From a virus, in the IMG/VR virus record IMGVR_UViG_3300034102_002514, positions 1 to 39,129 of that record: DNA of 39,129 nt, one strand, 5' to 3'. A program made the position numbers and the translations under genes. The notes under the pieces were generated by a model. The model worked only from the letters and a program-made list of their open reading frames with translations. It searched no databases and had not been told where the DNA came from. Below are positions 1 to 37,360 of the stretch, piece by piece (positions within the stretch are counted from its first letter, which is position 1; each line of letters starts with the position of its first letter).

Positions 1-464
1 AACGTGATGAAATTATTGAACGTGTGCGTGAGTTCAAGTACGAATTCAAAGAGCGACCAGGCTGGGAAAAAGGCTCACCCAAGCGTGTGAACAACTTGAC
101 CAAGTACGGCAAGGAAGAAGAACGCCTAGGCAAAGCCAACATGCCCGGACATGTACGTGCGGCATTGAACTGGAACAACTTGCGAAGAATGAACTCTGAC
201 AACTACAGTATGCAAATCGTTGATGGCATGAAGACCATTGTGTGCAAACTCAGAAGCAATGCTCTGGGCTGGACCAGCATTGGCTATCCCACAGATGAGA
301 TGCACCTGCCGCAGTGGTTCAAGGATTTGCCTTTTGCTGACACAGAAATGGAAGCCACTGTGGTAGATCAAAAGATTGACAACTTGCTGGGCGTGTTGGA
401 CTGGGACTTGGCTGCGGCCACCAACACAGAAAACACATTTACATCATTATTTTCTTTTGAATGA
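1..464 (+). CDS. gp43: T4 gp43-like DNA polymerase, C-terminal fragment
   Basis: The reading frame is open to the left edge of the window (first full codon at base 3), so only about the last 154 residues are present. The segment resembles the thumb and C-terminus of T4-like family B DNA polymerases, with a stretch reading SNALGWTSIGYPTDE followed by LDNLLGVLDWD-like residues. The final residues FTSLFSFE look like the C-terminal clamp-binding peptide of T4 gp43, whose end also carries a SLFxxF element. The sliding clamp gene lies just downstream, as expected for a replication module. The exonuclease and palm domains are outside the window. The stop overlaps the next start (ATGA). The assignment rests on recalled family similarity rather than a search. 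Confidence 0.8.
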   Translation, partial: RDEIIERVREFKYEFKERPGWEKGSPKRVNNLTKYGKEEERLGKANMPGHVRAALNWNNLRRMNSDNYSMQIVDGMKTIVCKLRSNALGWTSIGYPTDEMHLPQWFKDLPFADTEMEATVVDQKIDNLLGVLDWDLAAATNTENTFTSLFSFE

Positions 465-1399
465 AACTCAGCGAACTGGTTGGCTACTTGAACTTGTTGG
501 ACAGCAATGAACTTGCTCCTGACTATCATGCGGCTGTCAAAAAGTTTCATGAAATAGGCCATGTGATTGCAAATCATGCAGTGCAAGTTGATGAATATGG
601 CAGTGCATTTGTTGAAAAAATCAACGCTATTGCTCGTGAATTTCAACATGCACAATCTGCCTTGGATGATCTCAAAGCCAATGTGCGTGAACAAATCTCA
701 GCACTCGAACCTGCACAGTATCAAGCCAGTCAACGACTGTACGAAGAAGAGATGTGCTACGAAACCACGGAGTACATCCTAAATCGACGACTCAGCATTG
801 ATCCTGACAGCCGACTGTTACTCACTGGGCGACTGCTACAGTACACAGATTGGCGATTGCCCGGACTGATCATGCGTCCAGGGCGTGAAAAGTTCATCGA
901 AGACTTGGTACCATTGGATCCATTGTATCTTGTGGATCAACATGAAGAACTATTGGATCCTGCTGTGCAAGCATTTACAACAGAATATCAACGCCGTCTA
1001 AGACCATATGTTATCAACGATTATGAACATGCTGATGCATTATGGCAATTGCCTGTCAACCAGTATGGATTGATATTTGCCTACAACTACTTTAACTACA
1101 AACCCATAAAGGTGTTGCGTCATTATTTAGACAGCATGTTTGCTAGACTCAGACCCGGCGGTGTGGCCATATTCACCTACAACGACTGCGATTGGGCACA
1201 TGGTGTGGCCTTGGCTGAGAAGAATTTCATGTGCTATACGCCTGGAAGAGAAATACAGGCCTATTGCAATCAAATTGGTTTTGAAATCCTTTCAGTCAAT
1301 CGTGGCCAAGGCGATATTGCCTGGATGGAAATACGCCGACCTGGCGAAATTGAATCCCTTAGAGGCGGGCAGAGCCTGGCCAAAATAGTTGCACATTAG
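461..1399 (+). CDS. methyltransferase-like protein with N-terminal coiled coil
   Basis: A 312-residue protein. Residues up to about 100 are charged and helical (heptad-like, probable coiled coil). The C-terminal half has a Rossmann-like end: YGLIFAYNYFNY, then LRHYLDSMFARLRPGGVAIFTY, which matches the post-motif-III RPGG region of class I SAM-dependent methyltransferases, then a GFEILSV strand near the end. A clear glycine-rich SAM motif I (GxGxG) is not visible, so catalytic competence is uncertain. It is coupled to the polymerase gene by a 4-bp overlap and ends with a tandem TAG-TAA stop, followed by a promoter for the clamp. The substrate is unknown. Confidence 0.55.
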   Translation: MKLSELVGYLNLLDSNELAPDYHAAVKKFHEIGHVIANHAVQVDEYGSAFVEKINAIAREFQHAQSALDDLKANVREQISALEPAQYQASQRLYEEEMCYETTEYILNRRLSIDPDSRLLLTGRLLQYTDWRLPGLIMRPGREKFIEDLVPLDPLYLVDQHEELLDPAVQAFTTEYQRRLRPYVINDYEHADALWQLPVNQYGLIFAYNYFNYKPIKVLRHYLDSMFARLRPGGVAIFTYNDCDWAHGVALAEKNFMCYTPGREIQAYCNQIGFEILSVNRGQGDIAWMEIRRPGEIESLRGGQSLAKIVAH

Positions 1400-2160: not shown

Positions 2161-2381
2161 TAAAATCAAAATTGATGCGTAACATTAACTATCATTATTT
2201 CAATGATAGGTACACATCAGCTTGGACGTTGAGATTGAAATTTCTTTACTTTTCTCTGCGTCATGACAAAGTAACAAACACTTGGCATCACTGTGTTAAA
2301 TTTATAAATGATTTAGATATTTTAGGTTTGTATCATGAAATAGATTGGAACACCAAAACAAAAACTCAAAATGCAAGATAA
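2157..2381 (+). CDS. small hypothetical protein between clamp and dpdA
   Basis: A 74-residue basic protein rich in aromatic residues (NYHYFNDRY, TWHHCVKF). It starts inside the clamp stop (ATGA overlap) and its last 11 bases overlap the start of the next gene, which is the usual coupling here. Base composition is clearly more AT-rich than either neighbour, which suggests a recently acquired gene or one under weak constraint. I do not recognise a family. It could be a chance ORF, but without it there would be a gap of about 210 bases in an otherwise packed operon. Confidence 0.5.
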   Translation: MIKSKLMRNINYHYFNDRYTSAWTLRLKFLYFSLRHDKVTNTWHHCVKFINDLDILGLYHEIDWNTKTKTQNAR

Positions 2382-3966
2382 TCTAACCGCCAAGCAAAAT
2401 GATTACGCTGTGTTCTTACCGGCTATATCAGGTTTCTATGCCACGTTTGTGGGCAAGCAACGCAACGAGCCGTATGTGGATCCTGCAAGGTTTCCACAAG
2501 GCTTGACTGACATGGAACAGATGAACTGGCTCAACAGTCAGAAGGCATTGTTTCCGTACAAGTGGTCACTGTACTCTGGTGGTCATGCCAACTTGGATTT
2601 AACCAAGCAAGATTGGTCAGAGGACATGGTTCGCAATCGCGAGCCAGGCACTTTCATGCTTGGCGACTCTGGTGGATTTCAGATTGCCAAAGGCCTGTGG
2701 GAAGGCGACTGGAGAGCCAACTCGGGTTGTGCCAAGGCCGAAAAGAAACGCAGTAGTATTCTAAAGTGGTTGGACACTATCAGCGACTATGGTATGATTC
2801 TTGATATCCCTACCTGGGTTATTCATGACAAAAAAGCCAGCGATGCTTGCGGTATCAAGACACTGCAAGAAGCAGTGGATGCTACCAAGTACAACAATGA
2901 ATACTTTATGCGGCATCGCCGAGGCAAAGCCAATGGTGGTGCTAAGTTCTTGAATGTGTTACAAGGTGATAATCACACGTCGGCAGAAACATGGTACCAA
3001 ACCATGAAACAATACTGTGACCCTGTGCAGTATCCAGACACACACTTTGATGGTTGGGCCATGGGTGGTCAGAACATGTGTGATGTGCATTTGGTGCTGA
3101 AACGTTTGATCGCACTCAAGTATGATGGATTACTACAACCTGGCGTACATGATTGGATGCACTTCTTGGGCACATCAAAGTTGGAATGGGCTGTGCTACT
3201 CACCGTGATTCAAAGAGCAGTTAGAAAATACGCTAACCCCGAATTTACTATCTCCTTTGATTGTGCCAGTCCATTCCTCGCCACAGCCAATGGACAAGTG
3301 TACTTTGAAAATGTGTTTGAACATGATTCCAAATGGTCATATCGCATGGCACCGTCAGCAGATGACAAAAAGTATTCCACAGACACACGCAAGTGGTCAG
3401 ATGGTGTGGTAGCAGATGGCATCTACCCACGTTGGGAAGATTCACCACTCAGCAACATGCTCAAGATGAAAGACATCTGTATCTACAAGGCAGGTACACC
3501 CAAACCAGGTGTTGTGCTCACAGAAGAAAACTTCCGAGACCCTAACTTGTATGATGTGTTGCCAGATGTCAACAAAAATGGCAAGTGGGGCAAGACATCA
3601 TGGGATTCGTTCTCATATGCATTGCTGATGGGTCATAATGTTTGGATGCACTTGACTGCTGTGCAAGAAGCCAACCGTCGCTTTGATGCAGGAGAACATC
3701 CTGCTATGATGCGCCGTAGTACTGGTGACTATGCCAAGTTTGAAGACATTGTGGAGGCCATATTTGCCGCACCCACACGTGAAGATTCAGAAGCCATTAT
3801 TGAATATTATGATGACTACTGGATGGAAATCGTGGGCACACGTGGCTTCAAAGGCAAAAAAGCCAAGAACGCACGTACCCAATTCAATGCACTGTTTGAG
3901 TACGAACAAACCGAACAAGAAGATTTTGATTCCGGTAAACTTGATACATTAGAGGCCACAACATGA
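2371..3966 (+). CDS. dpdA: DpdA-like 7-deazaguanine DNA transglycosylase (TGT superfamily)
   Basis: A 531-residue protein with tRNA-guanine transglycosylase (TGT) hallmarks. D99-S-G-G-F-Q104 matches the substrate-binding Asp motif, NVLQGD resembles the TGT VQG motif, FDGWAMGG matches the G(Y/F)AIGG motif, and FD297CASPF matches the nucleophile region (DCxxPxR in classical TGT). The zinc site of bacterial tRNA TGT is not obvious, and the length exceeds Tgt (about 375). Phage DpdA proteins exchange guanine in DNA for a 7-deazaguanine made by FolE, QueD and QueE, all encoded in this window. The predicted role is DNA hypermodification that protects the genome from host restriction. A role on tRNA cannot be excluded from sequence alone. 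Confidence 0.82.
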   Translation: MQDNLTAKQNDYAVFLPAISGFYATFVGKQRNEPYVDPARFPQGLTDMEQMNWLNSQKALFPYKWSLYSGGHANLDLTKQDWSEDMVRNREPGTFMLGDSGGFQIAKGLWEGDWRANSGCAKAEKKRSSILKWLDTISDYGMILDIPTWVIHDKKASDACGIKTLQEAVDATKYNNEYFMRHRRGKANGGAKFLNVLQGDNHTSAETWYQTMKQYCDPVQYPDTHFDGWAMGGQNMCDVHLVLKRLIALKYDGLLQPGVHDWMHFLGTSKLEWAVLLTVIQRAVRKYANPEFTISFDCASPFLATANGQVYFENVFEHDSKWSYRMAPSADDKKYSTDTRKWSDGVVADGIYPRWEDSPLSNMLKMKDICIYKAGTPKPGVVLTEENFRDPNLYDVLPDVNKNGKWGKTSWDSFSYALLMGHNVWMHLTAVQEANRRFDAGEHPAMMRRSTGDYAKFEDIVEAIFAAPTREDSEAIIEYYDDYWMEIVGTRGFKGKKAKNARTQFNALFEYEQTEQEDFDSGKLDTLEATT

Positions 3967-9141: not shown

Positions 9142-9712
9142 GTTTGAATCTCGGCTGGCCAAGTTCACTGGAGCCCCACGTGCTATAATGACTGATTGTT
9201 GTACCCATGCAATTGAACTTTGCATGCGGTATGACCGTGTGGAGTACTGTGCATTTACTCCATTTACCTATTTGAGCATACCCATGCTTATGCACAAGTT
9301 AGGCATCAAGTATCACTATGAAGTTGGTACACCTGCTCAATGGATAGGTGAATATCGATTTAGAAAAACAAGAATCTGGGACAGTGCCAGGCGACTAGAA
9401 CAAGACATGTATCGTCATGGACAAATACAATGCTTGAGTTTTGGGCACGACAAACCTTTGTCTATAGGACGTGGTGGTGCTATATTGCTGGACGACGAGG
9501 ATGCATATCAGGCTATTCTACGCATGCGATATGATGGACGCGATTTGACTGTCAAACCTTGGCCTGTACAAAAAGAGTTCCGTGTGGGATATCATTACAA
9601 GCCCACTGTTGAAGAAGCAGAACGTGGAATGAAACTACTAAAACGTTATGTCAGTGAGCCGCCACGCACTGTTGAATATCCTGACTGTAGACAAATACGC
9701 ATTGTTGAATGA
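9122..9712 (+). CDS. compact DegT/DnrJ/EryC1-type aminotransferase
   Basis: A 196-residue protein, roughly half the usual 370 or so for the DegT/DnrJ/EryC1/StrS family. Recognisable blocks are AIMTDCCTHAIELCMRY (PLP phosphate-binding region), IWDSARRLEQ (the Asp that contacts the PLP pyridine nitrogen) and CLSFGHDKPLSIGRGGAILLDD (candidate Schiff-base Lys in HDKPL). The middle and C-terminal domains are reduced. Such enzymes aminate nucleotide-linked keto sugars, which fits the GalE gene directly upstream (20-bp overlap). Whether so short a version is active is open; it is intact, with no frameshift. Confidence 0.7.
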   Translation: MFEKILEFESRLAKFTGAPRAIMTDCCTHAIELCMRYDRVEYCAFTPFTYLSIPMLMHKLGIKYHYEVGTPAQWIGEYRFRKTRIWDSARRLEQDMYRHGQIQCLSFGHDKPLSIGRGGAILLDDEDAYQAILRMRYDGRDLTVKPWPVQKEFRVGYHYKPTVEEAERGMKLLKRYVSEPPRTVEYPDCRQIRIVE

Positions 9713-10743
9713 GTTGCATAGTTCGCAATAGGCCAGGCATGTTGCAATATGGCGCGGCACATTACGTCACAGATCAAATGCACATGCCAGGCTATTGTGA
9801 ACAGCAGATTGTGGATGACTGCAACCGCAGTGGCATCAGTTCAGAAGAGTTTGCACAAAGCAAAATTGTACTGTCGTTCCTAGACGAAGGGTTTGGTCCT
9901 GCAGAAATACAGCCATTAACTAATATACTATTGCGAACACACCCTGGTAAATTTATAGTATTGTTCAACGCACATGTAGCAGTTGATCAATTGCCTTATA
10001 CAGCTAGATGTTTTACTGCCTGGTTGATCAATCGCAGTGAGTACAAGTTAGATCAACTCCGCTATGACTTTGGCATTGCTCTTGATCGCAAGTTTTTGTG
10101 TTTGTTGCGCAGGCCCACACTGAATCGAGCAAGACTTGCACGTTTCTTTTTAGACAACATAGGGTCGGACACAGTTAGATTAAGTTTTGGCAGTGGAGCA
10201 CAGGGCGGACTTGACCAATATCGAGATGTTGTGGGTGTAGATTTGCCCCTGCTGGTAGATGGTGTATTAACAGATCGTGTGCAAGAGTTTGATGTTACCA
10301 ACCCCATATTTCATTCATGTTTGTTTAACATAGTGGCAGAGACCAGCAGTCAAACTGAAGCAAACTGGCGCAGTGTGTTTCTTACTGAAAAGACTTGGAA
10401 GGCGGTCATGCAGCGTCAAATGCCCATATGGTATGGTGTACCAGGCCTAGTCGAACATGTTAGATCATTGGGGTTTGATACATTTGATGACATACTTGGC
10501 GGCCATCAATATGATGCTATCCAAGACGAAACCCAAAGACACCAATCCGTATTTGATCTAATACGCCAAATCAACAATCAATACAGTTTGACAGATTGCC
10601 AAACACTACGCCAACAACTACAACCAAGGTTTGAAGCCAACTTTGAACAACTGTTACACTACTTTCGAACAAACAGACGACAAGTTTTTAATGCTGTGTT
10701 AGAGTTTGATTATCAAACAGGCTTGACCACAAGATCTAAATAG
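9709..10743 (+). CDS. glycosyltransferase-like protein (fucosyltransferase/GT10-like C-terminus)
   Basis: A 344-residue protein. The C-terminal half carries VFLTEKTWKAVMQRQMPIWYG, then LVEHVRSLGFDTFDDI, then a loop with QYDAIQDETQRHQ. This [S/T]EKT(w/l)..-P(I/F)-LGFDxF arrangement recurs in fucosyltransferase-like phage proteins and also appears in the - strand gene at 22140-23075, so the two are distant paralogues. The N-terminal half is unassigned. It is coupled by 4 bp to the aminotransferase and is followed by the folE promoter, whose -35 box lies within its last codons. Confidence 0.55.
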   Translation: MSCIVRNRPGMLQYGAAHYVTDQMHMPGYCEQQIVDDCNRSGISSEEFAQSKIVLSFLDEGFGPAEIQPLTNILLRTHPGKFIVLFNAHVAVDQLPYTARCFTAWLINRSEYKLDQLRYDFGIALDRKFLCLLRRPTLNRARLARFFLDNIGSDTVRLSFGSGAQGGLDQYRDVVGVDLPLLVDGVLTDRVQEFDVTNPIFHSCLFNIVAETSSQTEANWRSVFLTEKTWKAVMQRQMPIWYGVPGLVEHVRSLGFDTFDDILGGHQYDAIQDETQRHQSVFDLIRQINNQYSLTDCQTLRQQLQPRFEANFEQLLHYFRTNRRQVFNAVLEFDYQTGLTTRSK

Positions 10744-10768: not shown

Positions 10769-11464
10769 ATGCAAGAAAAAAATTTATCCCAAATACTTAG
10801 AGAACAAATGAAGACTCGAGGTCAACGCTTCTGGGCTGGCGATAATATCAGCGATTACATGAGCGATGCCATCAAAGAAAAACTCATTGACGAAGCCACA
10901 GTGGCATTTGAAGGTGTGTTGGATGCATTGCTGATTGATCGAGAAAACGATCCCAACAGCAAGGGCACAGCACGCCGCTTGGCCAAGATGTACTACAACG
11001 AAATAATGGCAGGAAGATATGAACCGGCACCAGACGCAACAGCATTTCCAAATGATTCAACAGATCGTTACGAAGGTATGCTTGTGGTACGTAGTGAGCT
11101 ACGAAGTATGTGTTCTCATCATCATCAGCCTGTCACTGGGGTTGCCTACATCGGTATTATTGCCGCTAATAAACTTATTGGTCTCAGCAAGTATACCAGA
11201 ATAGCACAGTGGTGCGCCCGTCGCGGTACACTACAGGAAGAACTCTGCATAGACATAGCCAATGAAATCATGGCAGCGACTGCGTCAAAGGACGTTGGTG
11301 TGTATATTCAAGCAGTGCATGGATGCTGTGAGAATCGTGGCATCATGGCACACTCCAGCCTAACACAGACCACTGTGTTGCGTGGTGCATTCAAAGATGA
11401 CGACAGTGTGAAAAAAGAGTTCATGGACAATATCAAATTACAACAGGAGTTTGCACCAAGATGA
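10769..11464 (+). CDS. folE: GTP cyclohydrolase I
   Basis: A 231-residue protein similar in length to E. coli FolE (222). C115-S-H-H118 in RSMCSHHHQPVTG and C186-C187-E-N-R-G in VHGCCENRG correspond to the zinc-binding Cys/His/Cys set. LSKYTRIAQWCARRGTLQEEL is the strongly conserved core helix. The reaction is GTP to dihydroneopterin triphosphate, the first step towards 7-deazaguanines. With queD, queE and dpdA in the same window the role is most likely DNA modification rather than folate. It has its own promoter. The last base of the stop is shared with the start of a small ORF. Confidence 0.92.
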   Translation: MQEKNLSQILREQMKTRGQRFWAGDNISDYMSDAIKEKLIDEATVAFEGVLDALLIDRENDPNSKGTARRLAKMYYNEIMAGRYEPAPDATAFPNDSTDRYEGMLVVRSELRSMCSHHHQPVTGVAYIGIIAANKLIGLSKYTRIAQWCARRGTLQEELCIDIANEIMAATASKDVGVYIQAVHGCCENRGIMAHSSLTQTTVLRGAFKDDDSVKKEFMDNIKLQQEFAPR

Positions 11465-12918: not shown

Positions 12919-13452
12919 ATGTCACAAGATCAATACGAAACAGGACACCGTTGGTTGTCAGCAAGACAATACAAGTACACATCAACCAAAGAATATCACG
13001 ATGCATTTCCGTGTGCGTATCGCCAATGGCGAGCAGACAGCCATTGCAATTTGATTCATGGTTATAGTTTTAGCATGAAGTTCTATTTTGGCACAGACAA
13101 CTTGGACGCACGTAACTGGGCCGCTGACTATGGTGGTCTCAAAGAACTCAAGTCAGTGTTGGAAAGTCAATTTGATCATACATTGCTGGTGTCAGAAGAC
13201 GATCCTGAACTGGAACTGTATTTGGAAATGCAACGCAGAAACATTGCCAAACTAACTATATTACCCAAACTAGGATGTGAAGGACTGGCTGACCAACTGT
13301 ACAAGTATGTCAACGGTGTGTACATTCCTGACATGTGGGGTGTTGGAGAAGCAGAACGTCTTTGGTGTTATCGCGTGGAAGTACGTGAAACACAAAGCAA
13401 CATGGCTTTTAGAGAAGGCCATAGAGAATGGAATGAGGATTTATTTGCATGA
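12919..13452 (+). CDS. queD: QueD-like 6-carboxytetrahydropterin synthase
   Basis: A 177-residue T-fold enzyme. DSHCNLIHGYSFSMKFYF matches the catalytic Cys plus HGHxY block, WAADYGGLKELK matches the DFxxLK block, FDHTLLV matches LDHxxLN, and VEVRETQSN carries the conserved late Glu. Two canonical zinc-ligand His positions read differently: the N-terminal Fxx(A)H reads FPCAYRQ and HGH reads HGY. The expected reaction is dihydroneopterin triphosphate to 6-carboxy-tetrahydropterin, second step of the 7-deazaguanine pathway. The start is set by TAGGAG at good spacing. Confidence 0.85.
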   Translation: MSQDQYETGHRWLSARQYKYTSTKEYHDAFPCAYRQWRADSHCNLIHGYSFSMKFYFGTDNLDARNWAADYGGLKELKSVLESQFDHTLLVSEDDPELELYLEMQRRNIAKLTILPKLGCEGLADQLYKYVNGVYIPDMWGVGEAERLWCYRVEVRETQSNMAFREGHREWNEDLFA

Positions 13453-16300: not shown

Positions 16301-16989
16301 TGTCAAGATTGTTTGCATTTGGGTGTAGTTTTACCAACTATCGTTGGAGCACCTGGGCCGATTGTCTTGCACCAGAGTTTGACTATTTTGAAAACTGGGG
16401 GCAATCAGGTGCCGGCAATCACTATATTTTTAACAGCATAATGGAAGCAGATCAGCGTCACCATTTTGGCGCCGATGATACTGTGGTAGTGTGCTGGACC
16501 AATGTCATGCGAGAAGATCGTTACACTGATCGTTGGCAGACTCTGGGCAACATAACTACCTGTCCAATATATGATCCAGGGTATGTTCGAGATGCTATCA
16601 CTGAAAGAGGATGTTTGATACGCGACATTGCCTTGATCAAGGCCACTAGTAGTTTTTTGAATAACTGTGCTGGTGTTACTGCAAAGTTTTTGGCCATGTG
16701 CGACATAATGAATCCCCGACAGTTTGACTATTCGCCAGGCGATCAAGATATTTTTGATTTATATCAACCCGTTCTAAATAACATCATGCCCAGTTATCAA
16801 ACAGTGTTGTATCCCTCAGGATGGAAACACAGTGATGATCCGCACCCTACACCTGCTGAGCATTTGACCTATTTGGATGCAGTATTGCCAGGTTGGGTGA
16901 CAAATCAAGATACTCGTGTTAAAATGCATGAAGAAAGTATCAATCTAAATAAACATCGTACAGGAATGTCAAAGGTAACAAGATTATGA
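16300..16989 (+). CDS. SGNH/GDSL hydrolase-like protein 2
   Basis: A 229-residue protein opening MSRLFAFGCSFTNYRW (block I Gly-Cys-Ser), then NWGQSGAGNHYIF (block II/III Gly and Asn), and DDPHPTPAEHLTYLDAVL near the C-terminus (Asp-x-x-His block V). It shares the first base of its start with the last base of the radical SAM stop, and overlaps queE by 4 bp. Four proteins with this plan occur in the window. The last 30 residues after block V are basic and unassigned. Confidence 0.7.
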   Translation: MSRLFAFGCSFTNYRWSTWADCLAPEFDYFENWGQSGAGNHYIFNSIMEADQRHHFGADDTVVVCWTNVMREDRYTDRWQTLGNITTCPIYDPGYVRDAITERGCLIRDIALIKATSSFLNNCAGVTAKFLAMCDIMNPRQFDYSPGDQDIFDLYQPVLNNIMPSYQTVLYPSGWKHSDDPHPTPAEHLTYLDAVLPGWVTNQDTRVKMHEESINLNKHRTGMSKVTRL

Positions 16990-17831
16990 AATTAAAAGTA
17001 TCAGAATTATTTTATTCAGCACAAGGTGAAGGACGCTATGTTGGCGTGCCCAGTGTATTTTTGCGCATGTTTGGTTGTAACTTTACTTGCTCAGGGTTTG
17101 GTTGCAAGCCAGGCGAAAAAAGTACAGAAGCAGACGAAGTTGCAAAAACTGTTGGTCTGTACAAAACATTTGAAGAACTGCCACTGGTAAACACCGGCTG
17201 CGACAGTTATGCGTCATGGCATCCAGACTTCAAACACTTGAGCCCCACATACACAGTGGAAGAACTTGTGGACAAAATGACTGCACTGTTGCCCAATGGT
17301 AGCTGGCTGCAACCCAATGGCAATCCCGTGCATTTGGTGATCACAGGTGGCGAACCGCTGTTGGGTTGGCAACGTGCTTATCCTGAACTGCTGGATGTGT
17401 TGGCAGAACGTGGCCTGCGACACATCACATTTGAAACCAACGGCACCCAAGACTTGACTCGAGAGTTTAGAGATTATTTGCGTGACTGGTTTGGTGAGAT
17501 CACATTCAGTGTCAGTCCCAAACTAAGCGTGAGTGGCGAAAAATGGGCAGATGCCATCAAGCCCGACGTAGTCTGGGACTATGAAACACATGGTGTTACA
17601 TATCTCAAGTTTGTGGTGGAAAAGGTCGAGGACTTTGATGAGCTGGATCGTGCAGTGGCAGAATATCGCTTGCGTGAGTTTGGTGGTCCTGTGTTTGTGA
17701 TGCCTGTGGGCGGTGTGGTGTCAGTGTATGACGGCAACAGGATCAATGTTGCTGACGAAGCACTGAAACGTGGCTACTGGTACAGTCCACGATTACACGT
17801 TGACCTCTGGGGCAACGGGTGGGGTAAATGA
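16986..17831 (+). CDS. queE: QueE-like 7-carboxy-7-deazaguanine synthase (radical SAM)
   Basis: A 281-residue protein. SELFYSAQGEGRYVGVPSVF is the QueE signature start, FLRMFGC31NFTC35 gives two cluster Cys, and NTGC72DSYASW corresponds to the CDTxYAW region with the third Cys. C40 also lies in the expanded loop, so C31-x3-C35 is followed by an insertion of more than 30 residues instead of CxxxCxxC. VITGGEPLLGW is the radical SAM GGE motif and FETNGTQ the next block. It converts carboxytetrahydropterin to 7-carboxy-7-deazaguanine. Coupled to its neighbours by 4-bp overlaps. Confidence 0.88.
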   Translation: MKLKVSELFYSAQGEGRYVGVPSVFLRMFGCNFTCSGFGCKPGEKSTEADEVAKTVGLYKTFEELPLVNTGCDSYASWHPDFKHLSPTYTVEELVDKMTALLPNGSWLQPNGNPVHLVITGGEPLLGWQRAYPELLDVLAERGLRHITFETNGTQDLTREFRDYLRDWFGEITFSVSPKLSVSGEKWADAIKPDVVWDYETHGVTYLKFVVEKVEDFDELDRAVAEYRLREFGGPVFVMPVGGVVSVYDGNRINVADEALKRGYWYSPRLHVDLWGNGWGK

Positions 17832-20931: not shown

Positions 20932-21274
20932 TCAAGAGAAGTTTATGCGGGCTTGCGACCAGTCGGTGGACGCAATGAATGAATCTCAGTACACTATGTA
21001 CAAGAGTTTGATTGAAGAAGAATTTCGTGAGTTGCAAGAAGCACACGACATGGAAGCAGAACTGGATGCATTGATTGATATCCTTGTGGTCACAATCGGT
21101 GCAATACACTCGGCAGGATTTGATGGCGAAGGTGCCTGGCGAGAAGTCATGAGCACCAACTTTGCTAAGATTGATAGAGAAACTGGCAAGGTCCGCAAGC
21201 GTGAGGATGGCAAAGTACTCAAGCCCACAGGTTGGCATCCGCCTGTACTGTATCCTTATCTACTTAAAAAATGA
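20912..21274 (+). CDS. MazG/PRA-PH-like nucleotide pyrophosphohydrolase
   Basis: A 120-residue all-alpha protein. EEEFRELQEA supplies the ExxE(E) pair and ELDALIDILVVTIGAI the ExxD pair that bind magnesium in MazG-type enzymes. I chose the GTG at 20912 because a near-perfect AGGAGG sits six bases upstream; the earlier ATG (20858) extends into the previous gene and lacks one. Phage MazG-like enzymes hydrolyse nucleotide pools, possibly (p)ppGpp or unmodified nucleotides. Pool adjustment is a plausible link to the DNA modification genes. Confidence 0.8.
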   Translation: MTNPFRDQEKFMRACDQSVDAMNESQYTMYKSLIEEEFRELQEAHDMEAELDALIDILVVTIGAIHSAGFDGEGAWREVMSTNFAKIDRETGKVRKREDGKVLKPTGWHPPVLYPYLLKK

Positions 21275-21483
21275 GTCTGCACATACATCGTTTTGTGGAC
21301 TCAATCAAGGCACACGAAGCACGTGGCCAAAAGGACTTCATGATGAGCATGCGTGATGCCAAAGACCTACACGCTGACATTACTAAACTGTTGATTACAT
21401 TGGAACAAATGCGAACACAGCAAACACGTGGCGCAGAAGTTGTAGAAGTGCAGATCACTGGAGGTAGTTTTAAATCTGCATAG
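21271..21483 (+). CDS. small conserved helical phage protein
   Basis: A 70-residue protein. FVDSIKAHEARGQKDFMMSM then RDAKDLHADITKLLITLEQM forms two amphipathic helices. The RDAKxLHxDITKLL segment is familiar from small proteins of T4-like marine phages. Coupled to the MazG gene by 4 bp. It ends with a TAG stop, with TAA three codons further in the same frame. No known activity. Confidence 0.6.
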   Translation: MSLHIHRFVDSIKAHEARGQKDFMMSMRDAKDLHADITKLLITLEQMRTQQTRGAEVVEVQITGGSFKSA

Positions 21484-24329: not shown

Positions 24330-24547
24330 CTACTGCAAAAAGTGCCAATGGTGTTGAAGGATGCTTGATACGCGGGCATGACGGAACATATTATTTCCGT
24401 GTGTACGATGCTGACCACAATTTTCGGGACTATGACGTGATGCACAGTGATCTGAGCATTACAATCACAGACCCCGATGCGTTCTTTTACACAGATGAAT
24501 ACAGTGATCGACTGGATCATGCTCCTGCCACACTGGGACTAGAATAA
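24326..24547 (+). CDS. small hypothetical protein
   Basis: A 73-residue acidic protein with beta-strand pattern (EGCLIRGHDGTYYFRVYDAD, then HSDLSITITDPDAFFY). GGAGAAGAAC ribosome binding site upstream. Overlaps the next gene by one base. No family recognised. Confidence 0.55.
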   Translation: MTTAKSANGVEGCLIRGHDGTYYFRVYDADHNFRDYDVMHSDLSITITDPDAFFYTDEYSDRLDHAPATLGLE

Positions 24548-24810
24548 TGGCCACAAAACACAACGATGATGATTTTGATTTTCCAGACCGGCCTGTGGAG
24601 CCTGATCCTTCACCAAAGGTAATTGTGCAAGCCGAAGATCTGCATCTTGGTGCTGCCACTGTGCGACCCGTGGGTCGTAGTTGGGCAGAACAGCATGGCC
24701 CACAACCCCCGGGTATAGGACTGCAAACTTTGGATTTCTTAATCATTGCCATGTTTGCTGGATCTGTGTTGTTGTTCATCAAAGCATGCACTTGGGCGTT
24801 GTTCAGTTAG
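24547..24810 (+). CDS. small single-pass membrane protein
   Basis: An 87-residue protein with an acidic N-terminal half (DDDFDFPDRPVEPDPSP) and a C-terminal hydrophobic helix (LDFLIIAMFAGSVLLFIKA) ending about six residues before the stop. This tail-anchored arrangement suggests inner-membrane insertion with the acidic part in the cytoplasm. A role in lysis timing or exclusion of other phages would be typical for such proteins, but nothing specific is shown. Confidence 0.6.
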   Translation: MATKHNDDDFDFPDRPVEPDPSPKVIVQAEDLHLGAATVRPVGRSWAEQHGPQPPGIGLQTLDFLIIAMFAGSVLLFIKACTWALFS

Positions 24811-27360: not shown

Positions 27361-28092
27361 ATGAGTGATGAATATCTCAACCCGCATTTGGAACACATAC
27401 AAAATCACCAGTGGTTTTGTTATGACTTTTCAACGGCTGTGGCATCACCGATCGATGGAGTTTGGGTGCTACAAGATTTCTTAACTGGGTCTGCATACAA
27501 CGCAGTAAAACACGATATTAGAATTAAACCAGCACAATGGCACAACAACTACGGAGGTCGGCACCTTAGCGAAAATGGCAATTATCCAGCAATAACCAAT
27601 TTAGGAGCCAGGTTAATTCCTTATTTAAATCGTCTATTGGGTGTTGATGTTAGACTGACAACTGTGCGTACCTACGTAGATTTCAGCAGCAGTTATTTTT
27701 ATCCTCACTTGGACGGCAAAGACTTTGCAGTAAATGTACAAATTTATATGACTGATTTAGATTACCCTGAATTAGGAACACAGTTTTGCATTGATCCTGT
27801 GATAAACGCTGAGTCAGAGTTGTTGAGTTCTAGTGAAATTATAGCAAGGTCTTACCGTGAAGAAGATTTCTTCACTGTCCCGTTTCGACAAAATTGGGGC
27901 TATATAAATGATAACCGGCAAAGAAAAATACACAAGACATTGCCAGTACCATTAGGTACCATACGTGAAAGCATTCACTTCAATTACATTCAAAAAAAAT
28001 ATCCAGAAGAATTAGGGTTAGAACTGCCTTGGTTCAAGGATGAAAAATGGCACAATCAATTTGTATCAACAGTAAATCAACAATATGAATAA
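27361..28092 (+). CDS. 2-oxoglutarate/Fe(II)-dependent oxygenase-like protein 1
   Basis: A 243-residue protein from the ATG after AAAGGAAC. FYPHLDGKDFAVNVQIYMTD has the HxD iron-binding pair, and RKIHKTLPVPLGTIRESIHF provides the distal His and an Arg that would bind 2-oxoglutarate. This HxD...H...R layout is the family signature. An in-frame extension upstream through the three tRNAs is an artefact. The likely activity is hydroxylation of a protein or small molecule. It is coupled by 8 bp to the gene after it. Confidence 0.7.
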   Translation: MSDEYLNPHLEHIQNHQWFCYDFSTAVASPIDGVWVLQDFLTGSAYNAVKHDIRIKPAQWHNNYGGRHLSENGNYPAITNLGARLIPYLNRLLGVDVRLTTVRTYVDFSSSYFYPHLDGKDFAVNVQIYMTDLDYPELGTQFCIDPVINAESELLSSSEIIARSYREEDFFTVPFRQNWGYINDNRQRKIHKTLPVPLGTIRESIHFNYIQKKYPEELGLELPWFKDEKWHNQFVSTVNQQYE

Positions 28093-28558
28093 ACCCATAA
28101 TTGAACCACATCACGAGAGCGAAGGCACCGACGATGACTTCTTTGATGACATAAGAGGCCGGTGGGCCCAAATGGAGGCCGAGCGGCGAGAATCTGATGA
28201 GTTCAAAGTCAACAACATGGAATATGACATGAGCCAGGCTGACTGGTTCCTAAGTAAAGTGCGTGGCAGCGACAACTATGCACAAAACTTGTATGCTGCC
28301 TTGTGCAACAATCAGTTTCAAAAGCAAGATGTTTGGCTGGTGCTGAAAGATGCCTACTGGAGTTGCAGTTGGCGTTATGCCGGTGGTGTTGTGGCTGACT
28401 TTAGAGACTGCAACGAAGACTACATGAACTGGTACTGCTCGGGCATTGGTCCCAAGGAAGACACTGAGTTTGTGGGCGAAGGCAACGTTACCGAGGAAAT
28501 TCGTGCAGATTTGGCACTCCTGGGCTGGCGTGTTGTTGAGGAACCTGACAGTGAATAG
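28085..28558 (+). CDS. acidic hypothetical protein
   Basis: A 157-residue acidic protein. The first 45 residues are highly charged and probably disordered (EGTDDDFFDD, EAERRESDEF). The rest has Trp/Tyr/Cys-rich blocks (WLVLKDAYWSCSWRYAGGVVAD, NEDYMNWYCSGIG). It overlaps the oxygenase gene by 8 bp and the next gene by 8 bp. Its base composition is richer in GC than the downstream genes. No family recognised. Confidence 0.6.
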   Translation: MNKPIIEPHHESEGTDDDFFDDIRGRWAQMEAERRESDEFKVNNMEYDMSQADWFLSKVRGSDNYAQNLYAALCNNQFQKQDVWLVLKDAYWSCSWRYAGGVVADFRDCNEDYMNWYCSGIGPKEDTEFVGEGNVTEEIRADLALLGWRVVEEPDSE

Positions 28559-30875: not shown

Positions 30876-31579
30876 ACAACACAAAACTACCGTTGATTCT
30901 TCTTGGTTCCAACCACAACATACACTGGTTGGTAGATGTTGCTGTTCGTGCAGGATATGACGTTGTTGGCATTATTGATGACGACTATCACGGGCAAAAA
31001 CAATTTCAAGATATCCCTGTTGTGGCCACACAAGATGATTTGATCTCTAATCGCCGGATCTACGATGGGTACCAATTTTTTTGTGCTACCAATTGGCAAC
31101 CTGATGATGTTTTGATTCCAGCACAATCTCGTAACAGACAAAAACGTTTTGAGCTAATCAACCTGCTGGAATCACAGCAATTGAATGTAGCAACAATAAT
31201 CAGCCCCAGTGCCGAAGTCAGTACCTATCAAGTCAGCATTGGACGTGGCACGTTTATAGATTCTTTTTGTGTGGTATCGCCCATGGACAAAATTGGAAAT
31301 TATACCAATGTGTACAGTCATGCCAACATTGGAGAAAACACTGTGGTTGGCGATCATTGTGTATTACAACGCCATGTGCAATTGGCAGGCGGAGTTACTC
31401 TAGGCAATACAGTTTACATGGGATTCTATAGCCTGGCCAATCGCGCCGGTATGCACATTGCTGATGACACATTTGTGCATCCAAGCATGACTGTGATGCG
31501 AGATACGGTGCCGGGAGAAGTGATTAGTCTGGCTGGCCGAGATCTAAGAAAAATTTACAATCGAGTGGTCGAACAGTGA
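30869..31579 (+). CDS. NeuD-like sugar O-acyltransferase (hexapeptide repeat)
   Basis: A 236-residue protein starting at a TTG that overlaps the preceding stop; no ribosome binding site is clear. The N-terminal part (LILLGSNHNIHWLVDVAVRA, then DDDYHG) is the pyruvyl/nucleotide-fold cap of NeuD-like proteins. The C-terminal part is a left-handed beta helix of hexapeptide repeats (IGNYTNVYSHANIGENTV, then VGDHCVLQRHV). Expected reaction: transfer of an acyl group from acyl-CoA to a sugar or nucleotide-sugar. The next gene, an acyl-activating ligase, could provide the donor. Confidence 0.8.
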   Translation: MLNNTKLPLILLGSNHNIHWLVDVAVRAGYDVVGIIDDDYHGQKQFQDIPVVATQDDLISNRRIYDGYQFFCATNWQPDDVLIPAQSRNRQKRFELINLLESQQLNVATIISPSAEVSTYQVSIGRGTFIDSFCVVSPMDKIGNYTNVYSHANIGENTVVGDHCVLQRHVQLAGGVTLGNTVYMGFYSLANRAGMHIADDTFVHPSMTVMRDTVPGEVISLAGRDLRKIYNRVVEQ

Positions 31580-32994
31580 CCAACCTGGCACAAATACTGT
31601 TTGAAAAAAACGCTGCCAATGCTGACCGTGTGGTGTTTGAAGACAATGAAGAAACTGTTACCTATGCTGAACTAGAGCATCGTGCTCGTCGCTTGGCCAC
31701 TTGGTTGATCAATCAAGGTATTCAACCAGGCAATCGTGTGAACATTGTGTTGTTGGACAAAATAAACACTGTGGCTGTGTTTTTGGCTGTGACCTTGATC
31801 GGAGCCGTGGCTGTGATGAACAATCCTCGCAGTCGCAGAGACAATTTGTTGCAACGTCTTGACTTTGTGGATTGTGCGTTGATCCTGGCAGAACCTGACT
31901 TGAACATTGAACATGCTGTAAGTGTAGAACAGGCAGTGGAGGTCAGTGCTGAATTGATACCACTCACAGGATACCACCGCAGTGACTTGAACGACATGGC
32001 TTTTATGTTGTGGACATCCGGCACAACAGGACATGCCAAGGCAGTGATGCACACACATCGCAGTTTTCTGCGAAACGTAGAAACAAACTGTGCAAGTTAT
32101 CCTACCTTGAGCACAGACAAGATAATGTGTACCAGCAAATTGTTTTTTGCATTTGGTATTAACTATTCCTTTATGACCACAATGTGGGTTGGGGCACAGG
32201 CATTGTTGGAATCAGGGCTCACGGTGCCCAGTACTGTGCGAGAAAACATTCGACGCTATCAACCCACCAAAATTTACAGTGTGCCTTTTGTGTACAGTCA
32301 ATTGGTGTCGGACCGGCAGCCTGTTGAAGTGCATGCAAAATGTTTTGCTGCAGGTGATCGCTTACCTCTGGTGCTGATAGATCGCTGGGAAGCCATGACC
32401 GGACAACGCATCTACAATATGTTGGGCACCAGTGAAGTGTTAAATTCTATTCTTTACAACCCCAAAGGAACCAGCAGCCTAGGACAAGCCACTCCGGGCA
32501 ATCGTGTGCGAGTAGTCGATGCAGATGGCATCCTGGCCTCTGTGGGCGAAACAGGATATCTCGAAGTACAGGCACCCACCATTGCCCTGGGCTACTACAA
32601 AGACCCTGAATGGACTGGTAAAATTTTCAAAGACTGGGTGGCCACTGGAGATGTTGCATACCAAGATGCCACTGGAGATTTCTATCATCAAGGCCGTGCC
32701 ACAGACATTATTAAAATTCGTGGACAATATGTAAATCCCGGAGACATTGAAGAAAGTTTGCAGGCTTATCCGGGTGTGTCGCAATCGGCTGTGGTCAGCA
32801 GACTGGGCATAAACGACATTGCTATTGTTGAAGCATACGTAGTAGCAGATGGTACAGTGACCCCAAAAGATTTACGAAAATGGATCTTGTCCAAACACGA
32901 GAGATACATGTGCCCAAAGATTTTCTATCTAGTTGAAGAACTGCCCAGAACTGACACTGGAAAAGTCCAACGATATCTATTGAGAAAGCAATAG
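31576..32994 (+). CDS. AMP-dependent acyl-adenylate/CoA ligase
   Basis: A 472-residue protein of the ANL superfamily. LWTSGTTGHAKAVMHTHRS is the A3 phosphate-binding loop, YNMLGTSEV the A5 motif, DWVATGDVAYQD A7, GRATDIIKIRGQYVNPGDI the A8 hinge, and RTDTGKVQRYLLRK the A10 Lys. All core residues are present, so it should be active. It activates a carboxylic acid as acyl-AMP. Aromatic acids are plausible because short benzoate-CoA ligase-like members have this layout. It starts at a GTG overlapping the NeuD-like stop. Such an enzyme is unusual in a phage. Ends in tandem TAG-TAA. Confidence 0.88.
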   Translation: MTNLAQILFEKNAANADRVVFEDNEETVTYAELEHRARRLATWLINQGIQPGNRVNIVLLDKINTVAVFLAVTLIGAVAVMNNPRSRRDNLLQRLDFVDCALILAEPDLNIEHAVSVEQAVEVSAELIPLTGYHRSDLNDMAFMLWTSGTTGHAKAVMHTHRSFLRNVETNCASYPTLSTDKIMCTSKLFFAFGINYSFMTTMWVGAQALLESGLTVPSTVRENIRRYQPTKIYSVPFVYSQLVSDRQPVEVHAKCFAAGDRLPLVLIDRWEAMTGQRIYNMLGTSEVLNSILYNPKGTSSLGQATPGNRVRVVDADGILASVGETGYLEVQAPTIALGYYKDPEWTGKIFKDWVATGDVAYQDATGDFYHQGRATDIIKIRGQYVNPGDIEESLQAYPGVSQSAVVSRLGINDIAIVEAYVVADGTVTPKDLRKWILSKHERYMCPKIFYLVEELPRTDTGKVQRYLLRKQ

Positions 32995-33019
32995 TAAATA
33001 AAATCAAAAGGAGACTGCT

Positions 33020-35140: not shown

Positions 35141-35156
35141 ATTGATTGCCTCTTGG

Positions 35157-35185
35157 TTGACAACCGCTACAAATAAATATATACT
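35157..35185 (+). promoter_or_regulatory. sigma70-type promoter for the tmRNA
   Basis: TTGACA at 35157-35162 and TATACT at 35180-35185 with a 17-base spacer. Transcription would begin about 35192, at the 5' end of the tmRNA acceptor piece. The promoter lies in the gap after the amidoligase-like gene. Confidence 0.8.
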
Positions 35186-35189
35186 GCAA

Positions 35190-35256
35190 GTTATTGCTGT
35201 ATGAAGCCGAGAGAAAAGTGTTCTGGACGGGGGTGCGAATCCCCCCAGGTCCACCA
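35190..35256 (+). ncRNA. ssrA: circularly permuted tmRNA, acceptor piece (3' tRNA-like part)
   Basis: The T-arm GGGGG-TGCGAAT-CCCCC (35229-35245), acceptor strand CAGGTCC (35246-35252), discriminator A and encoded CCA (35254-35256) form the 3' end of a tmRNA. The acceptor strand pairs with GGGCCTG at 35364-35370, 7 bp with the G3-U70 wobble that marks alanine identity. TGCTGT at 35195-35200 is complementary to ACAGCA at 35405-35410 in the coding piece (helix P2). The 5' end is estimated from the promoter. Confidence 0.85.
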
Positions 35257-35267
35257 AAAGGATAATT

Positions 35268-35375
35268 ATGAAACATAGATATACCGCATTGTGTCCAACC
35301 TGTTTTATTAGATTTGAATGGGTGAAGGACAAAGGGTTAACAAAACATAAGTGTCTTTCTGATGGGCCTGCATAG
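35268..35375 (+). CDS. 35-residue CxxC/HxC mini-protein inside the tmRNA intervening segment
   Basis: ATG at 35268 with AAAAGGATAATT upstream; stop TAG at 35373-35375. It reads MKHRYTALCPTCFIRFEWVK and then ends DKGLTKHKCLSDGPA. C9, C12 and the late H/C pair (HKC) form a possible zinc-knuckle. The last four codons overlap the first bases of the tmRNA coding piece (35364 onward). It may be translated before processing or be a chance ORF in a spacer that otherwise has no known content. Confidence 0.5.
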   Translation: MKHRYTALCPTCFIRFEWVKDKGLTKHKCLSDGPA

Positions 35376-35500
35376 TTTCGACAGGGCAACAAGTAACAGA
35401 GTGGACAGCACGGTAGGCGATGACCGTTAATCAAGCAAAAAACGTAAACGCAAACGACGAACTGTTCGCATTGGCAGCCTAAACACTGCCTAGGGTAAGA
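35364..35500 (+). ncRNA. ssrA: circularly permuted tmRNA, coding piece
   Basis: It begins with the acceptor strand GGGCCTG and the conserved TTTCGACAGG region. Hairpin CGGT-ACCG (35411-35425) resembles pseudoknot 1. The tag frame at 35450-35482 reads Ala-Asn-Asp-Glu-Leu-Phe-Ala-Leu-Ala-Ala-stop, so the full tag is probably AANDELFALAA with the charged Ala. GGCAG/CTGCC (35474-35490) encloses the stop codon as helix 5. It rescues stalled ribosomes; the ALAA end targets tagged peptides to ClpXP. The gene order acceptor-intervening-coding defines permutation. The 3' end is approximate. Confidence 0.88.
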
Positions 35501-35523
35501 CATACCTCGTAACAGAAACTCAG

Positions 35524-35548
35524 AACCCGCTTCGGCGGGTTTCTCTTC
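35524..35548 (+). terminator. intrinsic terminator after tmRNA
   Basis: AACCCGC (35524-35530), loop TTCG, GCGGGTT (35535-35541), then TCTCTTC. The stem is strong with a stable TTCG loop; the T-run is weak, so termination may be partial. Confidence 0.65.
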
Positions 35549-35561
35549 AATAAATATCTCA

Positions 35562-36158
35562 ATGATAGTTTACATACACGGTGCGTCAGCCACAGCAGAA
35601 AGTTTCACACACATTAGACAGTTTGTGCGAGATCACACAGAAGAATCCGATGTTGCATTAGAATACAACAGCGAAGCAGGATTTGAACACAACCTGGCTG
35701 CAATGAAAGGCCAGTTGGACGATGAGGAACGACTGTTCTTTGTGAGTCACAGTCTGGGCGGTATCTATGCCCTGCACCTGGCCAACTATTACAGTGAAAC
35801 CACAGTGGGCGGTGTGAGCCTGAGCACACCCTATGGTGGCAGCAAACAAGCAGACTATGCACGTTACTTCTTGCCGTTCAATCGGCTGATGAAAGACATT
35901 GGACCTGCAAGTCGTCCCATGGCCGACGCCAAAAAGTTACCAGCACCCCCAAACTGGACACAAGTTGTCACAACCCGTGGTGCCAGTCCCTGGATACAAG
36001 AGCCCAATGATGGTGTGGTCACAATAGAAAGTCAACAATATCGTACGGACTTTGAACTGGTGGAACTTCCGCTAAACCACTACGAAGTTGTGATCAGTAA
36101 CACCGTGGTCGAAATCATCTTGGATCGCATTGGGCAAGTGCTTGGAAAAAAGTCTTGA
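35562..36158 (+). CDS. alpha/beta hydrolase
   Basis: A 198-residue protein beginning MIVYIHGASATAESFTHIRQF (HG oxyanion region). LFFVSHSLGGIYALHLANYY holds the nucleophile elbow SHSLGG with Ser in a variant of GxSxG. QEPNDGVVTIES gives a candidate Asp and LNHYEVVISN the catalytic His. It resembles short lipase/esterase proteins. It follows the tmRNA terminator, and no clear ribosome binding site is visible upstream of the ATG. A role in lysis or lipid ester cleavage cannot be decided. Confidence 0.8.
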   Translation: MIVYIHGASATAESFTHIRQFVRDHTEESDVALEYNSEAGFEHNLAAMKGQLDDEERLFFVSHSLGGIYALHLANYYSETTVGGVSLSTPYGGSKQADYARYFLPFNRLMKDIGPASRPMADAKKLPAPPNWTQVVTTRGASPWIQEPNDGVVTIESQQYRTDFELVELPLNHYEVVISNTVVEIILDRIGQVLGKKS

Positions 36159-36183
36159 CACCTTGTCAACAATAATATATACT
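36155..36183 (+). promoter_or_regulatory. sigma70-type promoter for the tRNA-CTA segment
   Basis: TTGACA at 36155-36160 and TATACT at 36178-36183, spacer 17 bases. The -35 overlaps the end of the hydrolase gene. The transcript would carry the 29-residue membrane ORF, the CTA tRNA and the downstream amber-containing gene. Confidence 0.8.
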
Positions 36184-36200
36184 ACACACAAGGAACAACA

Positions 36201-36290
36201 ATGGAAATTGCAATACTTTTACTGTCAGTGGTGTTTGGCGGCGCTATCTTAGTAGCCGGTGCAGCATTCATTATTGCAGTATTAAAATAA
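36201..36290 (+). CDS. 29-residue membrane peptide
   Basis: A tiny ORF, MEIAILLLSVVFGGAILVAG ending in AAFIIAVLK, almost entirely one transmembrane helix with a positive C-terminal end. It has AAGGAACAAC before the ATG and its own promoter. It may be a small membrane effector of the kind found in phages (lysis or entry related); no homologue is recognised. Confidence 0.5.
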   Translation: MEIAILLLSVVFGGAILVAGAAFIIAVLK

Positions 36291-36297
36291 TACACCG

Positions 36298-36374
36298 GCG
36301 ATGGTAGCCCATAAGGTAAGGGCGGTTGCCTCTAAAACAATCGGTAGTGGGTTCGATTCCCATCCATCGCACCA
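36298..36374 (+). tRNA. tRNA with CTA anticodon (amber suppressor)
   Basis: A complete cloverleaf with acceptor GCGATGG/CCATCGC, D-stem GCCC/GGGC, anticodon arm GTTGC-CTCTAAA-ACAAT (one C31-A39 mismatch), T-arm with TTCGATT, discriminator A and encoded CCA. U33 is followed by CTA, which reads UAG. No sense codon is read by CUA. The amino acid is unknown; Gln is one-base related but the body does not settle it. It lies upstream of a gene with an in-frame TAG (36614). Confidence 0.8.
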
Positions 36375-36389
36375 AATTAGGAAATAGAG

Positions 36390-36581
36390 ATGAGCAAAGG
36401 TACAAGACCCAGACCCAGCGTGGTCAGCCAACAAGAACTGGCTGCACGCCATGAAGCAATTTTTGGCAAGAAGCCACCAAAGGAACGCTATGTTCCGCCG
36501 CCCTTGCCCGCAGAATTGGCAGGACCCAGTTCTTTTGAACAGCAGTTGGGTGTGGCCAAACTTCCACCTGGAAGAACTTGA
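36390..36581 (+). CDS. small hypothetical protein
   Basis: A 63-residue basic, proline-rich protein, MSKGTRPRPSVVSQQELAAR and then EAIFGKKPPKERYVPPPLP. Probably disordered. It has a TAGGAAATAG site before the ATG. It lies between the CTA tRNA and the amber-containing gene. No function assigned. Confidence 0.6.
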   Translation: MSKGTRPRPSVVSQQELAARHEAIFGKKPPKERYVPPPLPAELAGPSSFEQQLGVAKLPPGRT

Positions 36582-36607
36582 GTAAATATTTTAAAGGAGA
36601 TAGTAAA

Positions 36608-37162
36608 ATGAAATAGATTGAATATGCATGTAAAGACTTGGTGTTTCACTTCAACAAAGGACACCTAGCCGATGAGACCATACCAATGTGGGTCGTTAAA
36701 GCACATGGCGTCACGTTCTACGTCAATCACGTCACAGCAGATATGCCTTGGAGCACCAAGGAAACCCCTGGCAATGAAAAGACCAAGGGCAGTATCAAAT
36801 TTAAAAAGTGTAAGTTAACCATTGATCCAGACAACAATGCCACGATCTCACGGTTAGGCATTGCTGATGCTTGGCTGAAGCATCCTGAACGGCGTGCTGG
36901 TCGTATCATATTCCCATATGGTGGTAAGATGCATCGTGCATTGAGTGAGGGCGAGTTTGAGCACAGCAAATTCAAGAACGTGGAGGGCAGTTGTGGCAGT
37001 TCATTTGTCATCTGTGATTTACGCGACGAGCGTGAACTCACATTTGCTGGTATCAAGTATGCCACCTATTTTCGAATCCTTGCCGCCAACGAGCATTACT
37101 ATCAAGCCTATGACAGTGACAACACAATTTGGGAACAAGATGAGGAAGAATTGGATGAATAA
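36608..37162 (+). CDS. conserved phage protein with in-frame amber codon at position 3
   Basis: AAAGGAGA at ideal spacing precedes ATG AAA TAG; the same frame then continues open as IEYACKDLVFHFNKGH and on to the TAA at 37162, a 184-residue product if TAG is read. The body (for example MWVVKAHGVTFYVNHV and TKGSIKFKKCKLTIDPD) resembles a conserved hypothetical protein of T4-like marine phages. Without readthrough, initiation would need TTG at 36638, GTG at 36641 or ATG at 36686, none with a good ribosome binding site. Alternatively ATG-AAA-TAG is a two-codon minigene or a sequence error. Function unknown. Confidence 0.65.
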
Positions 37163-37308: not shown

Positions 37309-37331
37309 AACAAAAGTACTACTCAAGCAAA

Positions 37332-37360
37332 AACCCGCTTTCTAGGCGGGTTTTTCTTTT
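37332..37360 (+). terminator. intrinsic terminator
   Basis: AACCCGC (37332-37338), 7-base loop, GCGGGTT (37346-37352), then a T-rich tract to 37360. It separates the amber-gene/mini-ORF transcript from the tRNA array. The stem sequence is the same as in the tmRNA terminator. Confidence 0.85.

Follow-up and report, generated by a model that had tools for sequence, protein, structure and literature searches.

Amber-recoding phages such as the Lak and crAss-like phages use genetic code 15 and recode their whole genome (e.g., PMC9523058). Apart from these, suppressor tRNAs have been described in several giant phages. For XacN1, such a tRNA was reported and an in-silico read-through by the authors yielded no target (PMC5852040), while the study of Atu_ph07 reports a UCA suppressor and supposes several targets (PMC6102473). 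The CUA suppressor of RsoM2USA (PMC8504454) and the tRNA-Pyl(CUA) of AP-J-162 (PMC11242549) have no identified target either. Here, we describe a phage locus which resembles the amber-recoding phages in that a phage-encoded CTA suppressor tRNA is combined with an in-frame TAG read, in our interpretation, as an amino acid. In contrast to those phages, TAG stays a normal stop codon, and the exception is confined to one small module, where it lies almost always within the first few codons. A dedicated lock on a single module was not described in the literature searched, although most subscription papers and bioRxiv preprints were outside the scope of this search.

The window, i.e., the whole stretch of DNA that was analyzed, is a virus record of 39,129 bases. 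The putative transcription unit within it (Table 1) runs from the promoter-like site at 36155 to the hairpin at 37329 and contains a 29-codon ORF, the CTA tRNA, a 63-aa ORF without a PHROG match and the gene carrying the early TAG, here called the locked gene. The original prediction, made from the sequence alone, was that a well-formed tRNA with anticodon CTA is followed after about 240 bases by a gene with an ideal ribosome binding site, which begins ATG-AAA-TAG and continues as an open frame of 181 codons. Both the tRNA and the gene were confirmed. The Shine-Dalgarno sequence lies eight bases 5' of the ATG (36608-36610), 181 sense codons separate the TAG from a TAA at 37160-37162 and the distance from the 3' end of the tRNA to the ATG is 234 bases. 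It had also been proposed that tRNA and gene share one transcript from the promoter at 36155, which is likely but not shown.

Table 1. Features of the window locus and of the internal stop codon in related phages.
Feature	Position	Strand	Evidence
Permuted tmRNA, phage-encoded, beta-proteobacterial type	35144..35573	+	Rfam RF04321 140 bits, RF01850 139 bits; ARAGORN tag ANDELFALAA
Sigma-70-like promoter, TTGACA-17-TATACT	36155..36183	+	Consensus scan, 11/12 matches; match is not evidence of function
29-codon ORF, hydrophobic product, first in putative transcript	36201..36290	+	Read from sequence
Amber suppressor tRNA, anticodon CTA, encoded CCA end, discriminator A	36298..36374	+	ARAGORN; Rfam tRNA 60.1 bits; aligned with 45 other CTA tRNAs
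63-aa ORF between CTA tRNA and locked gene	36390..36581	+	ORF list
Shine-Dalgarno sequence, AAAGGAG	36593..36599	+	Sequence; spacing to ATG retained in nearly all homologues
Locked gene, FHFN family, ATG-AAA-TAG-ATT-GAA, 184 codons if TAG is read	36608..37162	+	Homologues L002-L106 and RHph_I1_18
In-frame amber codon, codon 3 of locked gene, proposed lock	36614..36616	+	TAG in 63/68 distinct loci
Downstream in-frame ATG (MWVVKA), rejected as true start	36686..36688	+	Purifying selection on codons 5' of it
Terminator-like hairpin, closes putative unit	37329..37355	+	Consensus scan
Internal TAG of RaK2-like HD gene	L317:2950-2952, L318:2953-2955, L319:3058-3060; also L366-L373		

Near this locus the window also encodes a permuted tmRNA, as do RHph_I1_18 and the L074 group. 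Its type points to a beta-proteobacterium as host of the window phage, and a functional relation to the module is possible. As a separate observation, the translations of four further window genes (2371-3966, 10769-11464, 12919-13452, and 16986-17831), judged by eye, resemble a transglycosylase (TGT-like), GTP cyclohydrolase I, QueD and QueE, which would constitute a 7-deazaguanine pathway.

Homologues of the locked gene were collected from IMG/VR. A search of this database returned 22 relatives, and an alignment search matched 377 sequences, of which the best 80 were kept. The counts for this gene rest on 68 distinct phage loci encoding the FHFN family, which form 36 clusters at 80% core identity; the number of independent evolutionary events is smaller than the number of sequences counted. 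In 63 of the 68 loci, a Shine-Dalgarno sequence, an ATG and a few codons are followed by TAG directly 5' of the conserved frame, always in the frame of the ATG. The Shine-Dalgarno sequence is present at nearly all of these loci and weak in L062, L070, L075, L086 and L106. No early TAA or TGA occurs at this site among the 68 loci. The base after the TAG is A in 57 of 63 cases, and UAG followed by A is a context known to favor suppression. The codon after the TAG is mostly ATT or ATC, but AAC, ACT, GTA, AAA and CAA occur as well; due to this variation, ATT as an unusual start codon was rejected. The variable sequence before and after the TAG further suggests that the identity of the inserted residue is unimportant.

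An indication of readthrough comes from the codons between the TAG and the downstream MW. Over these 23 codons pN/pS is 0.23, compared to 0.18 for the codons after MW. They evolve as coding sequence, which implies that the ribosome must pass the TAG; thus, readthrough at this site is supported by the comparison. An in-frame ATG at MW is present in all 44 aligned sequences, and no homologue was found that begins only there. The same arrangement is seen in a cultured Rhizobium phage, RHph_I1_18, whose FHFN gene reads ATG AGT GAG TTC ATG TAG AAC GAA TCG TGC with a tRNA-Pyl(cta) just 3' of it. In this genome, the gene is unannotated and no CDS is placed there. (The RHph_I1_18 row of alignment A2 lacks its TAG and served solely as a search query.)

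With these data the remaining claims of the original prediction can be judged. The expectation of a glutamine codon CAG at the third position of homologues failed, since homologues keep the TAG and the few exceptions start with a plain ATG. Homologues starting at MWVVKA only, which had been named as a refutation, are excluded by the conserved upstream codons. The concern that a sense codon is hidden by a sequencing error is contradicted by a TAG shared between 63 loci, many samples and isolates. That this is regulated readthrough rather than wholesale recoding is supported by the comparative data, where regulation in time is likely but not shown. The restriction to one gene, however, was too narrow, since in other phages the early stop is found on Pth2 or HD-Pth2 genes, sometimes on two genes.

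A scan for early stops (Shine-Dalgarno sequence, ATG, at most nine codons, stop, open frame) over 654,744 bases, i.e., the 68 loci and the whole RHph_I1_18 genome, returned 65 TAG, one TAA and one TGA, 58 of these at the FHFN gene, which exceeds what chance would give. Whole-genome scans of this kind also return unconvincing TAA and TGA candidates. Additional early-TAG genes in L060, L065 and L089, and one with TAA in L018, were rejected as independent cases. In each of them a homing endonuclease gene (NUMOD3 or HNH_3) has inserted into the ATG-TAG-ATT lock (L060:2329-2985, L089:2313-2975, L065:2220-2975, L018:1585-2253), and every insert has a residual 5' end, which in L018 contains TAA.

A CTA tRNA was found within about 3 kb of the FHFN gene in 59 of the 68 loci. 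Even in genomes of 350-520 kb, most of these tRNAs share the strand of the gene and precede it by 30-2000 nt, and often no other tRNA is near the gene. Several that ARAGORN missed were found with the covariance model R1; this is a general tRNA model which matches ordinary tRNAs as well, and the CTA calls were therefore checked by anticodon. For L027, L066, L081, L083 and L102, which lack a nearby CTA tRNA, a search of the whole record located one. In the 150-kb fragment of L031 none was found, and L005, L030 and L056 lie on contigs that are truncated or not long enough for a judgment. Conversely, L068 has a plain ATG start despite a nearby CTA tRNA.

In an alignment of 46 CTA tRNAs the bodies are diverse, whereas the loop CTAA is invariant and G18/G19 and TTC-A show little or no variation. 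The discriminator is A73 in most and G73 in some, and the isotype is not clear. The inserted amino acid is consequently a matter of inference; lysine or glutamine would be a guess from known amber suppressors. A classification as tRNA-Pyl was rejected, as the shape criterion is not met and "Pyl" is merely the ARAGORN label for the anticodon CTA. In RAS14, ARAGORN also calls a tRNA with anticodon TTA, which reads TAA, beside the CTA tRNA (L313:2428-2502).

In L011, L036, L081, L085 and Phosso, the FHFN gene starts with a plain ATG. In the first four, the linked upstream gene, encoding a Pth2-type peptidyl-tRNA hydrolase, has the early TAG instead. The Pfam match to Pth2 is strong in L036 and weak in L011, L081 and L085, which nevertheless align with the confirmed Pth2 group. 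In Phosso, pth2 begins ATG AAG TAT TAG and the FHFN domain is fused further down the operon, while the L075 and L106 records have an early TAG in both pth2 and FHFN genes. An HD-Pth2 fusion of XacN1 and RAS14 begins ATG AAG TAG ACC; in XacN1 it is annotated as ORF364 with a later start. Standard annotation thus truncates or misses early-stop genes of this module. Furthermore, a methionine, one or two residues and the TAG open the Pth2 genes of ME3, XbC2, CBB, Serratia BF, Salmonella Arash, Tenacibaculum pT24 and the uncultured LR745206. Of these phages, CBB, BF, XbC2 and pT24 have a confirmed CTA tRNA; ME3 and Arash have one that is annotated or was found, and CTA tRNAs also occur in XacN1 and RAS14. 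For LR745206 a suppressor tRNA is unproven, since one of two candidates is a tRNA-Arg and the other is not called by ARAGORN.

Single-sequence scans returned few Pth2 loci, and an alignment scan with the Pth2 group of the module yielded 39. Here, 29 have an early TAG (26 from a scripted tally plus L368, L369 and the fusion L398, which were read individually), one has an early TGA and nine have no early stop. L362, L384, L394 and L399, like L068 above, show a plain ATG despite a nearby CTA tRNA; either some lineages can do without the lock or it resides on an unseen gene. Where Pth2 genes stand apart from the module (phiM19, XacN1 ORF295, SCTP-2), their annotated starts are ordinary. The 39-kb window itself yielded no pth2. 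The HD gene of RaK2-like phages contains a conserved second, internal in-frame TAG (ISELD[TS]G-TAG-GD) in all eight loci scanned, which may be a second readthrough site, as inferred from sequence alone. In the record of L037, a Pth2-like ORF on the minus strand (L153) has a frame also preceded by TAG (ATGTGGGTAT-TAG), and an internal methionine makes this case ambiguous.

Evidence that the early stop and a dedicated tRNA belong together also comes from lineages with a different stop codon. In Atu_ph07, the orthologous pth2 reads ATG ATT GGC GAA CAC TTT TGA ATT, and the genome encodes a well-formed 75-nt tRNA with anticodon TCA (60 bits), which ARAGORN detected, whereas it detected no CTA tRNA. 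Between this Pth2 and that of Phosso, where TAG occurs with CTA, identity is 72%. Independent of Atu_ph07, the IMG/VR phage L374 reads ATG GAA TCG TGA GTG, about 180 bases downstream of a 77-nt tRNA with anticodon TCA (72.8 bits). Both TCA tRNAs are of canonical shape and not long tRNA-Sec (≥90 nt). Mismatched pairings, with a TCA tRNA alone for an early TAG or the reverse, did not occur among the loci examined. Lineages with TGA carry a TCA tRNA and most of those with TAG a CTA tRNA, i.e., stop codon and anticodon covary, and the pairing of both is supported by the comparison. Candidate targets are thereby newly identified for the suppressor tRNAs of XacN1 (HD-Pth2) and Atu_ph07 (pth2 of the FHFN operon).

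Elsewhere in these genomes TAG is an ordinary stop. The original prediction counted at least six other genes ending in TAG, and six such ORFs are present in the window (461-1399, 9709-10743, 21271-21483, 24547-24810, 28085-28558, and 31576-32994), whose read-through extensions are short. In two of them TAA is the next codon (1397-1402 and 32992-32997), as if a backup against readthrough. TAG ends 6-15% of the genes in RHph_I1_18, Phosso, Atu_ph07 and the L007, L075 and L106 records. One convincing early-TAG gene each was found in RHph_I1_18 and in the 374-kb L007 record, and convincing early TAGs are limited to the FHFN/Pth2/HD module. The comparison therefore supports a restriction to one module and not wholesale recoding.

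No PHROG, Pfam (including PF01981) or PDB sequence match was obtained for the window protein, which without the PF01981 match is not regarded as a Pth2, and searches of bacterial and archaeal genomes returned no relatives. BFVD holds one uncharacterized relative (160 aa, 61%). The model of the full-length protein gave only weak ferredoxin-like matches in its C-terminal part. The 79-aa FHFN core is predicted to be mostly beta at a pLDDT of 93, and comparison with known structures revealed no recognized relative (best Foldseek E 1.1, best Z 2.4). Any function of the window protein is thus inferred.

Taken together, suppressor-tRNA-dependent readthrough at the early TAG is very likely. This rests on comparative data, and no protein, ribosome-profiling or charging data are available. 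Mechanistically, the CTA tRNA would decode the in-frame UAG at codon 3 of the locked gene. Without the charged phage tRNA, RF1 would end translation after two residues, and full protein would be made only once the tRNA has been transcribed, processed and charged and then competes with RF1. Since a host without its own suppressor cannot read UAG, the early stop would lock the gene, and the phage tRNA would be the key to it. The purpose may be timing, in that the phage delays a small module connected with translation until its tRNAs have accumulated. Such timed expression is inferred, and whether the lock really serves as a checkpoint could be argued equally well either way. The biochemical role of the module is likewise inferred. 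It may deal with peptidyl-tRNAs and overrun or stalled ribosomes arising from suppression itself, as Pth2 hydrolyses peptidyl-tRNA; alternatively, its substrates may be host tRNAs, once those of the phage are available.

Of the rival explanations, the one surviving best shares the readthrough step and differs in purpose. Here, readthrough would be a feedback sensor of UAG termination, whose product alters RF1 or suppressor activity, comparable to prfB sensing RF2. A very early stop with a strong Shine-Dalgarno sequence would give a sharp on/off response, and the module includes a peptidyl-tRNA hydrolase, a translation-quality enzyme. However, the FHFN protein showed no similarity to release factors or their regulators, and the TGA/UCA lineages would need to sense RF2. 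We consider this rival unlikely.

Even less probable, and in our view very unlikely, is that the TAG is the real stop of a tiny leader ORF, followed by re-initiation at ATT, GTG/TTG or the MW ATG, with the CTA tRNA being unrelated. Mini-ORFs of two to six codons can control downstream re-initiation, and the invariable in-frame ATG at MW would fit. On the contrary, the codon after the TAG varies too much for a start, GTA or GTC frequently takes the place of the GTG at codon 9, and protein-level conservation extends over the 23 codons preceding MW. Furthermore, the stop is specifically TAG, not TAA or TGA, and covaries with the tRNA anticodon.

Wholesale amber recoding, with the locked gene as one of many, is all but excluded. 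The CTA tRNA and the internal TAG of the RaK2-like HD gene speak for it; against it stand the share of genes ending in TAG in the six genomes checked, the single convincing early-TAG gene in RHph_I1_18 and in the L007 record and the short extensions on the TAG-ending window genes. A decaying pseudogene or sequencing error, to which the mis-started or skipped annotation in isolates might point, can be practically dismissed, since TAG recurs in loci and isolates, the protein is conserved and the cognate tRNA is paired with it.

If suppressor-dependent readthrough is accepted, a bolder reading suggests itself, toward which we lean slightly. In large phages that otherwise use the standard code, a widespread and so far unrecognized class of switches may exist, in which a stop-codon lock on Pth2, HD or FHFN genes is opened only by a dedicated suppressor tRNA (UAG/CUA or UGA/UCA) and acts as a checkpoint on the pool of phage tRNAs. 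The conserved target module would give a purpose to suppressor tRNAs of giant phages which previously had no known target. No bench test has been performed, and the question becomes testable in isolates already available.

Among known systems, Pth2 (PF01981) occurs as a linked partner gene in related phages, with matches above the Pfam cut-off in several of them. The pyrrolysine and selenocysteine systems are similar in that a dedicated tRNA reads a stop codon in few genes. In contrast, the phage tRNAs are canonical in size (73-78 nt) with the usual D- and T-loop bases, and there is no sign that a special amino acid is required. The autoregulatory frameshift of prfB (RF2) likewise ties synthesis to the state of the termination machinery via an early in-frame stop, whereas here the stop would be read in the zero frame by a phage tRNA and no frameshift is involved. 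What is described here would be a gene-specific, tRNA-dependent translational control in phages that keep the standard code.
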